Source of the DNA: Desulfurellaceae bacterium bin18
Lineage (GTDB): Bacteria > Desulfobacterota > Binatia > Bin18
Length of the DNA stretch: 64,000 bases
Reading direction: 5' to 3'
Assembly: GCA_002238415.1 (NCBI GenBank)
Contig: MPMI01000012.1
Span: 1 to 64,000 of the forward strand
Position 1 is the stretch's first letter. Each line of letters starts with the position of its first letter. The notes beneath the pieces are model-generated. The model saw only the letters and a program-made list of their open reading frames with translations. It had not been told where the DNA came from and did not search any database. Both the position numbers and the translations under genes were made by a program. This document shows, one piece after another, positions 3,912-28,931 of the stretch.

Positions 3912-4772
3912 CGGCCTGCGCAGTCGCTCGGCCATGCGGACCGCTTCCATCGTCTCTTTGACATCATGGGCGCGGATGATGTGGGCTCCGTTAGCCACCG
4001 CGATGGCAGCGCAGGTCAGCGAGCCAATGAGGCGATCCTGGACCTTGGGTTGGTCCAGAATTTTCCCAATAAAGGATTTGCGCGAGGCTCCGACGAGGAG
4101 GGGAAATCCTAACGACCGCAAATCTGCGAGCGCCCGCAGCACCAGGCAATCCCACTCGTCCCAGGCAATCCCAGGCTCACGAAAAAATCCAATCCCGGGG
4201 TCGAGCACGATCTGCTGCCGAGGAATGCCGGCCTGCTCCGCGCGCGCCAGACTGTCCCGCAGGGCGTTCCGAATGCGCTCCAAAGGCGGTCCGCTTTGGG
4301 GGTGCTGTTCGCTCGCCATCAGAATCGCACCAACTCCGGAACGGGCAATCAGCGCAGCCATAGCCGGATCATTCCTCAAACCACTGACATCGTTGACAAT
4401 CCGGGCGCCCGCTCGCAGGGCGGCCTGGGCAGGCTGAGACCGCTTGGTATCAGCCGAAATTGGAATCGAAACAGCCGCCGCAGTGGCTTCAACGGCCTGG
4501 GATAAACGTTCGGTTTCTTCTGCTTCTGAAATATCAGTTTTTAGGTACGGGGCGGTGGACATAGCCCCAATATCAATGATATCAGCTCCCTCACCTGCCA
4601 GTGCATTCGCCGTTTCCGCTATCTGCTCACGATTGGTATGGATTGAGTCCGGGTAAAAAGACTCAGGGCTGACGTTCAGAACGGCTATAATCCGGACCGG
4701 CAGTGTGTCGCCGACCGGAATGCCGGCCAATTGTGCAGAAAGGGAGGGGGGGATGTGGCTCATGAGGGGCAT
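3900..4772 (-). CDS. folP: dihydropteroate synthase FolP
   Basis: FolP joins p-aminobenzoate to dihydropterin pyrophosphate in folate synthesis. The 290-residue protein has the TIM-barrel landmarks: IAVLNVSPESFYPDS, DIIDIGAMSTAP, ISADTKRSQPA, IVNDVSGLRNDP, VLDPGIGFF, LLVGASRKSFIG, and the C-terminal IIRAHDVKETMEAVRM. In the first motif FY-PDS replaces the common FSDGG, and MSTAP replaces the usual ESTRPG-type loop, so two pterin-site loops are unusual. It converges on gph. It could be a divergent DHPS paralogue, but the overall fold signature is clear. Confidence 0.85.
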   Translation of the reverse strand: MPLMSHIPPSLSAQLAGIPVGDTLPVRIIAVLNVSPESFYPDSIHTNREQIAETANALAGEGADIIDIGAMSTAPYLKTDISEAEETERLSQAVEATAAAVSIPISADTKRSQPAQAALRAGARIVNDVSGLRNDPAMAALIARSGVGAILMASEQHPQSGPPLERIRNALRDSLARAEQAGIPRQQIVLDPGIGFFREPGIAWDEWDCLVLRALADLRSLGFPLLVGASRKSFIGKILDQPKVQDRLIGSLTCAAIAVANGAHIIRAHDVKETMEAVRMAERLRRPLGG

Positions 4773-4898
4773 GCTATACCGTTACTGAGCAGAAGTTGAG
4801 ACCGGCCTGCGGTAGAGACGGCAGGAGCGGCATTTTTTGTTTGCGGGCTCCTATATTTTTCACTACACTACCGTGGCATGAGATAGGAGAGTAGAACT

Positions 4899-24813: not shown

Positions 24814-25851
24814 ATGGAACTTTCTGATTTCGACTACGACCTGCCGGCCGAGTTAATCGCCCAAGAGCCGGCAAAACAACGCGATCAGTCCCGCCTGCTG
24901 CACGTTGGGCGAGGCGACGCTTCCCTCTCGCATCATCGGTTTTCGGACCTGCTCGGCCTGCTGCCCAAAGACTGTGTGCTGGTCTGTAACAACACCCGCG
25001 TTATCCCGGCCCGCTTGCGCGGGAAGAAGACGACGGGCGGGAAAGTCGAACTCCTCCTCGTTCGACGTACCGTGGCTGAGGGAGAAGTCTGGCAGGTCTT
25101 GTGTAAAGGCGGTCAAAAACAGAAAGTCGGCGGGCGCATTAATTTTGCGGATAAATTTTGGGGCAAATGGGTGGAAGTGCCGAGGGCCGGTCAGGGGAGT
25201 ATACGCTTTTTCCCGGAAAAGGACTTTCAGCGACTTGTAGAACAACACGGAGAAGTCCCGCTGCCGCCGTATATCAGGCGCTCGCCGGGCCGGCACGCGA
25301 TAGACCAGGAGCGCTACCAAACGGTGTATGCCCAGCAATCTGGTGCGGTCGCCGCTCCGACTGCCGGGCTGCATTTTACGCCGGCATTACTCGACAAGCT
25401 GGTCCAGAGTGGCATTCAGCTGTGTTTTATCACTCTGCATGTTGGTCTGGGCACGTTTCAGCCTATCCGGGTGGAGCAGGTTGAGACGCATACGATGGGA
25501 ACCGAATCATACGAAATCGATGCGGCCACCGCAGAATGTATCAACACGGCTAAAGCCTCCGGGAGAAAAATCATTGCGGTTGGGACAACCACAACACGCG
25601 CGCTCGAATCATCCGCTCAACAGACGGGCCACGTCCAGCCCGGATCGAATCAGTCCGATTTGTTTATTTATCCCGGCTATGAATTTCAGGTAATAGACGG
25701 CTTGATCACCAATTTCCATCTGCCCCGTTCGACCCTGCTGCTGCTGGTGTCAGCCTTCGCCGGACGCGAGCGCATGCTGCACGCCTATGCGGAAGCGGTG
25801 AAGCGGCGCTACCGGTTTTACAGTTACGGGGATGCGATGTTGATTGTGTAG
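24814..25851 (+). CDS. queA: S-adenosylmethionine:tRNA ribosyltransferase-isomerase QueA
   Basis: QueA (345 residues) transfers and isomerises the ribosyl of SAM to preQ1-tRNA, giving epoxyqueuosine. Family signatures: SDFDYDLPAELIAQEP at the start, VCNNTRVIPARLRGKK, PLPPYIRR, AAPTAGLHFTPALL, and the C-terminal LITNFHLPRSTLLLLVSAFAG. The start is ATG 24814, right after the repeat. queG and tgt of the same pathway are elsewhere in the window, and only queA/tgt are near each other. Confidence 0.95.
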   Translation: MELSDFDYDLPAELIAQEPAKQRDQSRLLHVGRGDASLSHHRFSDLLGLLPKDCVLVCNNTRVIPARLRGKKTTGGKVELLLVRRTVAEGEVWQVLCKGGQKQKVGGRINFADKFWGKWVEVPRAGQGSIRFFPEKDFQRLVEQHGEVPLPPYIRRSPGRHAIDQERYQTVYAQQSGAVAAPTAGLHFTPALLDKLVQSGIQLCFITLHVGLGTFQPIRVEQVETHTMGTESYEIDAATAECINTAKASGRKIIAVGTTTTRALESSAQQTGHVQPGSNQSDLFIYPGYEFQVIDGLITNFHLPRSTLLLLVSAFAGRERMLHAYAEAVKRRYRFYSYGDAMLIV

Positions 25852-25902
25852 GTGGGAGGGGGCGCTCATGGATTGAAGCCGTTCTCCCGTAATGAAGCCG
25901 GA

Positions 25903-26172
25903 CTATGCTGCTATCCGTTCTGTGGGTAGCGGAACTTCCACGTAGGCAAAGACCAGTTCTTGAAATTCGGGATTCTCCAGATGGTGCTCAACTGATTGAC
26001 ATTCGGGGACCGCCTGGCCAGCTTCCGGATACGCCTCCACATTGATCCGGATCGCTTCACTGGCTGCTTGCTTTGCTGCTTCGATCGTTTCTCCGTATGT
26101 CACGATTGCTAAATCGGGCACTTGTACGGCAAATCCTGCGTCCGTTTGTTCCAGCATAATGAGGTATCGCAT
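25903..26172 (-). CDS. HicB-like small protein, second gene of a HEPN-phosphatase pair
   Basis: An 89-residue protein beginning MRYLIMLEQTDAGFAVQVPD, with ETIEAAKQAASEAIRINVEA after it. That is the HicB partial RNase H-like fold (YxVxxE---G-AxxPDLxG-TxxEA---A-EAI). The start at ATG 26172 gives the exact family N-terminus. No HicA gene lies on either side, so this is not a standard hicBA pair. Instead it follows the upstream phosphatase gene by 19 bp. I recall HicB-like proteins next to this phosphatase type, where they may act as its regulator. The tail (PLPTERIAA) differs from DNA-binding HicB C-termini. Confidence 0.7.
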   Translation of the reverse strand: MRYLIMLEQTDAGFAVQVPDLAIVTYGETIEAAKQAASEAIRINVEAYPEAGQAVPECQSVEHHLENPEFQELVFAYVEVPLPTERIAA

Positions 26173-26191
26173 TACGGAATCTGCGGTCTGA

Positions 26192-27271
26192 TCACTGTAA
26201 TACGGGAGCCACGGCAAAGTTTTTTATCCAGTTGCTCTGTTCAAGAGTATCTGGGACTACACATCCCCGAGCCTGACTGATTTGGGCCAGGGCAGCTTCC
26301 GGGTCTATCCCGGCTGATACAAGTAAGAGGGCTGCTATAAGGCCTGAACGTCCAATCCCTTGCCGACAATGGACAGCTACGGATTTGCCAGCTTCAAGTA
26401 TTTTCTCCAATTCCTTTACTAGATCAGCCGTTGCTCTTCGTGACGCGGGAACTCCTCGATCAGGTATCGGATAGGCGTAGAATTGGATGTCCTGTGCCTG
26501 GCACAAAAGTTCTTCCTGATTCAGTTCAAGTTCGATGTTTTCATCGTGGGTGAGCAGCGAAACTACCACATCGAGTCCGGCTTCCTGCCAGAAACGGACT
26601 TCCTCTTCGAGCCAGTCGCCTCCGCGCGGACGCGGGACGATGGCCAGGCGACCGGTCCAGGGGACTTCTATCCAATACATTGCGAGTAGATTATACCAAT
26701 TGAGAAGAAATTGCCTGAAACCGCTAACAGGGATGTCTAGGTATTTATATCCGGGTACAGGACCCACGGGTTGTCCACACGTTTCACATTTCTTCTTCTT
26801 ACGCTTCTCTGAATAGAGCCTTAACGATTGTATTGGTGGGTCCCCTGTTGAGGGATTACCATCTGTAAAGAGATTGCCATGTGCGAGAGCATTACGAATT
26901 ATAGCCAGCACTTCTGAAACATCTTTCTTTCTGACACTTATGGTAGGGGGCTCCCAAGAACTTGGTCCATTACCGAAGTGCTTTGTAAACCCGGATAGCC
27001 ACTCTCCCGTATCTCTGAACAATAAACTTTTGCTCCACGTCGTGTTAAGTTCCTCTTTCTTAAAGCCCAACAGGTCCTCTTCGAAGAACGCCGAGTCCGA
27101 GTCTGGATGCCTACCCTGCGTCCGCTCACGAGGAATAAGGAATGCGGATGATGCGGCCATTAAGAGCAAAGTCACTTCCCTATCCTGCGTCTTTGCATCT
27201 GACTCAAAGCGCTCAAGAATATCAATGCAACGTCCTGGTAAATCGACAATATAGCCGCGATACGCGGTCAT
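26192..27271 (-). CDS. HEPN-like domain fused to a dual-specificity protein phosphatase
   Basis: A 359-residue two-domain protein. Residues 1-195 contain DREVTLLLMAASSAFLIPRE and IRNALAHGNLF, the R-x4-H motif (RNALAH, 126-131) of HEPN domains, most like the pEK499_p136-type family. A CETC pair (162-165) may bind metal with others. Residues 198-359 are a cysteine phosphatase: RLAIVPRPRGGDW, an acid-loop PIPDRGVPASR, the P-loop HCRQGIGRSG (Cys302, Arg308) and a helical end. Homologues of the second half usually stand alone and begin at the internal Met198 (M-YWI-x-x-PW-GRLAI). No stop separates the halves. A strong AAGGAGA supports ATG 27271. The HEPN assignment rests on motif and length and is the less certain half. 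Confidence 0.75.
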   Translation of the reverse strand: MTAYRGYIVDLPGRCIDILERFESDAKTQDREVTLLLMAASSAFLIPRERTQGRHPDSDSAFFEEDLLGFKKEELNTTWSKSLLFRDTGEWLSGFTKHFGNGPSSWEPPTISVRKKDVSEVLAIIRNALAHGNLFTDGNPSTGDPPIQSLRLYSEKRKKKKCETCGQPVGPVPGYKYLDIPVSGFRQFLLNWYNLLAMYWIEVPWTGRLAIVPRPRGGDWLEEEVRFWQEAGLDVVVSLLTHDENIELELNQEELLCQAQDIQFYAYPIPDRGVPASRRATADLVKELEKILEAGKSVAVHCRQGIGRSGLIAALLLVSAGIDPEAALAQISQARGCVVPDTLEQSNWIKNFAVAPVLQ

Positions 27272-27367
27272 AGATTCTCCTTAGAATTTGGTAGGGAACA
27301 CTTTATCAATGTTTTTCTACACATGATCTCGCAAATATCACACTGCACCATCCATTCTGCAATGTAG

Positions 27368-28931
<1,564 letters not shown>

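Follow-up and report, generated by a model that had tools for sequence, protein, structure and literature searches.

The window, a stretch of 64,000 nucleotides from contig MPMI01000012.1 of Desulfurellaceae bacterium bin18 (assembly GCA_002238415.1), carries one open reading frame that joins a HEPN-like half to a dual-specificity-type (DSP-type) phosphatase, followed by a HicB-like gene (Table 1). Both lie on the strand opposite to the flanking genes queA and tgt, beyond which are genes resembling yajC, secD and secF by sequence. The first-pass annotation had described this single 359-residue frame with its RNALAH and HCRQGIGRSG motifs and, after it, a HicB-like gene with no adjoining HicA in the window. 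Our analysis confirmed both points: the HicB-like ORF begins 19 bp past the fusion stop and scores 53.1 bits against Pfam PF15919 (cut-off 27). For tgt, the listed TTG start probably lies too far upstream; an ATG before FQFTTIQ fits better. Rfam gave zero matches in the window, PADLOC matched none of its proteins, NCBIfam matched them only at low scores far under the cut-off, and a promoter and terminator scan found sites no more numerous than in shuffled sequence.

Table 1. Features of the fusion locus, with positions in the window, and ParB-like ORFs at related loci, with positions in those loci.
Feature	Position	Strand	Length	Basis or remark
Fusion ORF, HEPN-like + DSP-type phosphatase	26192..27271	-	359 aa	
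HEPN-like domain, residues 1-197	26681..27271	-		alignment, model, weak PF18736 match
RNALAH, HEPN R-x4-H motif, residues 126-131	26879..26896	-		
Phosphatase domain, residues 199-359	26195..26677	-		homology to standalone relatives from Y199 on
P-loop HCRQGIGRSG (C-x5-R), residues 301-310	26342..26371	-		
IPDRGVP loop, residues 269-275	26447..26467	-		holds probable general acid Asp
AAGGAG ribosome-binding site for fusion ORF	27277..27282	-		sequence
HicB-like antitoxin gene, orphan in the window	25903..26172	-	89 aa	
Possible trace of lost hicA	26173..26182	-		about ten bases aligning with the G001 hicA end
Variable cargo slot between queA and tgt	25857..27363	.		homology to relatives restarts either side
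queA, conserved flank	24814..25851	+		
tgt, conserved flank	27368..28585	+		listed TTG start
ParB-like ORFs upstream of phosphatase	L019:7992-8240, L021:8485-8727, L022:1212-1448			

The second half of the fusion is a DSP-type phosphatase by Pfam, by PDB sequence and by fold, as had been proposed from its motif. It combines the C-x5-R P-loop with the PTP fold that together define DSP/PTP cysteine phosphatases, and the Asp of the IPDRGVP loop is, by analogy with the PTP family, the probable general acid. The best fold matches are protein phosphatases, among them Tk-PTP, KAP and SsoPTP (Foldseek E-values of roughly 2e-6 to 2e-5 across ~150-170 residues), and the matches include RNA 5'-phosphatases (1yn9, 1i9s). 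Standalone phosphatases of the same genus are 82-85% identical to this half, and two viral contigs carry a standalone phosphatase that is 46% identical. Purifying selection acts on the phosphatase: three methods put its dN/dS at 0.16-0.24, near the 0.13-0.20 of an unfused pair from two same-genus genomes (G005 and G006).

In three genera the phosphatase is immediately preceded by a small ParB-like ORF with a DGHHR motif. Two of these sequences were tested and had no Pfam or NCBIfam match. In two other genera of the family the ParB-like gene adjoins the phosphatase away from queA and tgt in the DNA examined, and it is possibly the ancestral partner of the phosphatase.

The first half matched PF18736 (HEPN pEK499_p136) weakly, at 17.3 bits (E 0.004), with membership set at the curated Pfam cut-off of 26.6 bits. 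The window half was aligned with three rhizobial plasmid proteins, and a search of genome contigs with this alignment identified 23 HEPN relatives. Across 21 aligned sequences M1, P12, R14, P47, R50, H55 and R126-NALAHGN are invariant, so that the catalytic R-x4-6-H pattern (R126-NALA-H131) is present in every one of them. PF18736 was matched at E<=0.1 by 11 of the 21, and the best scorer, L031, reached 28.7 bits, over the cut-off. The AlphaFold2 model of this half is confident (mean pLDDT 89.6) and mainly helical with a strand insertion. Foldseek found no significant match for it among solved structures in the PDB, its VIA-align Z values all stayed below 5, and the HEPN alignment used as a profile against PDB sequences gave zero matches; the lack of a fold match does not speak against a HEPN fold. 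By its sequence the first half is likely to be a HEPN-type protein, in line with the first reading of the RNALAH motif, and is predicted from its sequence to keep RNase potential. As the closest standalone HEPN relative is 47% identical over the first half and the standalone phosphatases 82% over the second, the resemblance of both halves to these families is more than chance.

The window HEPN half is without a C-terminal tail of roughly 15-20 residues that is present in its relatives. Most of these relatives (L029-L051) have an Ala right before the stop, and 14 of the 22 complete ends have Ala-Ala. Such ends recall SsrA-type degradation tails, and the fusion does not have one.

The join between the halves is clean. 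HEPN homology extends to residues 195-197 and phosphatase homology opens at Y199, and in the structure model the last HEPN helix (182-197) meets the first phosphatase strand (199-202) with no linker. The same-genus standalone phosphatases start M-R-T-V/T-A and then share Y-W-I-E, which begins at Y199 in the window; their start codon and next four codons are missing from the fusion. The first-pass annotation took Met198 to be the normal start of the phosphatase, which proved mistaken, as this residue aligns with the relatives' Ala5. Internal translation of the phosphatase from Met198 was considered and is not favoured, since no ribosome-binding site is visible before it. As far as the sequence can tell, the phosphatase would be translated solely within the fusion.

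Standalone versions of both halves were found in other genomes. No other HEPN-phosphatase fusion was found in plasmids, in 58 relatives or in 395 genomes of the phylum, nor with the HEPN half as the query in 148 genomes of the class and phage records. The phage records held no HEPN relative, and the viral contigs no relative of the fusion or of the HEPN half. Every relative at the 23 HEPN loci is either a standalone or a partial gene, and no phosphatase is attached to any of them. A Streptomyces plasmid match that reached query residue 136 was rejected: the stretch lies upstream of the annotated phosphatase start and has no HEPN motif. Our searches of the open-access literature turned up no title or abstract describing a HEPN-phosphatase fusion.

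Read by eye, the neighbours of several HEPN relatives look like type I or III restriction-modification genes. A 2013 survey of HEPN proteins gives restriction-modification and NamA-like partners for the pEK499_p136 family (Anantharaman et al. 2013, PMC3710099). The rhizobial relative on a Shinella plasmid precedes an Abi_C protein (PF14355). At L036, in a Caldithrix MAG (4001-4889), the HEPN gene is followed directly by a HicB/UPF0150-like gene with no HicA, the two sitting between genes resembling lpd and lipB; at none of the other 22 HEPN loci was an adjacent HicB-like gene recognised. Six loci (L030, L032, L033, L034, L038 and L042) have a protein of ~145-180 residues adjoining the HEPN gene, which it overlaps in several of them. 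It starts near FYPxC...DIxEP...DEVIFCD; three of these proteins were searched against Pfam and two against NCBIfam and PADLOC, all without a match.

The history of the locus was approached by comparing the window with six genomes of the same genus (G001-G006), making seven genomes of one genus. Their flanks share about 89-96% DNA identity (90-95% for G002-G004), and HEPN, phosphatase and HicB are all variable cargo of a single slot that queA and tgt enclose. In G001 it contains a complete HicA-HicB pair and a HEPN gene that an internal deletion and a frameshift have disrupted, and no phosphatase of the window's kind was found in that genome. In G002 and G004 the slot is empty, with queA and tgt almost touching, while G003 has a HicB 3' remnant beside queA (the queA side was examined). 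G005 has a HEPN 3' stub (81% identical to G001 over 85 bases), DUF433, a DUF5615 PIN-like gene and a standalone phosphatase, and G006 has a small ParB-like ORF and a standalone phosphatase of 166 residues, 85% identical to that of the window. Toxin-antitoxin and defence genes thus turn over at the queA-tgt slot of the genus.

The window's genome has no HicA gene beside this HicB; its HicA matches are all on other contigs, and a search of the genome for DUF1902 (PF08972) found none. The window HicB protein, which ends in IAA, is identical to that of G001 (the DNA differs at 2 of 267 bases), where it stands directly behind a complete HicA (PF07927, 51 bits) at the same site. In alignment with G001, about ten bases ahead of the window hicB correspond to the end of hicA. 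As G001 shows that the cargo of the slot can include this same HicB with its HicA, the window HicB most likely belonged to a HicA as its antitoxin and was orphaned; it would not be a neutraliser of the HEPN protein, with which it presumably does not interact.

The first-pass annotation had read the locus as a new toxin-antitoxin or anti-phage module, in which a HEPN RNase is coupled to a phosphatase switch and neutralised by the HicB. The gene order in the window is consistent with this, and the HEPN and HicB-like pair without HicA at L036 leaves some room for a link between the two. However, the HicA partner in G001 argues against it, as do close HicB relatives with no HEPN alongside in G011 and in G008, the latter beside a broken HicA. 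The window hicB has no visible ribosome-binding site, while in G001 hicA overlaps hicB. The phosphatase stands alone at the same site in G005 and G006. With no second fusion in any other genome searched and a HicB-like neighbour at L036 only, a designed module of these three parts is unlikely, and we consider the neutraliser reading very improbable.

Divergence at the locus is uneven. Against G006 the phosphatase has a dS of 0.42 (NG86), where queA and tgt have 0.21-0.22, or about half as much; against G001 hicB has a dS of 0.03, under the 0.12-0.17 of the flanks. These contrasts, over 155 and 89 codons only, suggest exchange between lineages. Another reading is that the joined ORF is an assembly chimera of two strain variants, one of the HEPN-HicA-HicB type and one with a standalone phosphatase. 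The fusion is present in a single draft assembly of 83 contigs, and sister genomes carry arrangements resembling both presumed parents. Such a chimera would need two independent joins, between HEPN and phosphatase and between phosphatase and HicB. The window shares only about 13 bases with relatives at the junction, none of the junction 12-mers is repeated elsewhere in the window, and the two halves meet in frame at the edges of their domains. We regard an assembly chimera as quite improbable.

The fusion is probably an accidental product of recombination in a turnover slot, with the HicB an orphan and not its antitoxin. We infer the following order of events. A HEPN-family gene, cut close to its 3' end by recombination or deletion, would have become fused to a standalone phosphatase already resident in the slot; the phosphatase would have lost its start codon in the join, leaving a single reading frame. 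The loss of hicA, which made an orphan of the antitoxin gene hicB, probably belongs to the same history. On the simplest account, the slot would once have contained HEPN, phosphatase and HicAB genes and then undergone two losses or recombinations. The product would most likely be an accidental bifunctional protein with HEPN RNase potential and phosphatase activity, both predicted from sequence.

Counted against an accidental origin are the open ORF and the two intact active-site motifs of the fusion, while the HEPN gene of G001 is broken; for this reason selection may be keeping the fusion. The intact motifs, the AAGGAG site and a phosphatase dN/dS near that of the unfused pair also make it possible that the fusion is a bifunctional enzyme. 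A selected two-enzyme effector, in which the HEPN half cuts RNA, the phosphatase either processes the RNA ends or, by taking off a phosphate, switches the RNase on and off, and HicB is irrelevant, would fit with these features, with the in-frame join behind a good ribosome-binding site, with purifying selection on the phosphatase and with the RNA 5'-phosphatases among its fold matches. Yet the best of those matches are protein phosphatases, the fusion was seen once and the domains have no linker, and the selection figures cover the phosphatase only, the nearest HEPN relative being just 47% identical. We think such an effector unlikely, and a functional single chain, in which a HEPN domain of the pEK499_p136 type is coupled for good to a cysteine phosphatase so that RNA cutting and dephosphorylation are concerted, or one controls the other, rather improbable.

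Seven genomes of one genus indicate how gene turnover in a toxin-antitoxin slot can give rise to a fusion protein and to an orphan antitoxin, which is a caution against taking neighbours in such slots for a designed module. If the fusion is active, an RNase and a phosphatase in one chain would be a new pairing.

The locus recalls several known systems. It shares with HEPN-MNT (type VII) toxin-antitoxin systems a HEPN protein as a possible toxin, but its neighbours are queA and tgt, with no MNT nucleotidyltransferase adjacent. HEPN-MNT toxins require the Tyr of R-x4-H-x-Y, whereas the window motif, RNALAH-G-N, has no Tyr after R-x4-H-x. The pEK499_p136 HEPN family (PF18736; Anantharaman et al. 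2013, PMC3710099) is closer, sharing the R-x4-H motif and a weak full-length profile match, with one relative (L031) over the cut-off and several near restriction-modification-like genes as that survey reports; the window protein differs in scoring under the cut-off, in having lost its C-terminal tail and in being fused to a phosphatase. The second half shares the C-x5-R P-loop and the conserved D-R loop of standalone DSP-type phosphatases (PF22785, PF00782; Tk-PTP, SsoPTP, KAP), but is without their native start codon. The HicB protein is that of a complete HicAB toxin-antitoxin pair at the same site in G001; in the window HicA is gone, and HicB and about ten possible hicA bases are what remain of the pair.
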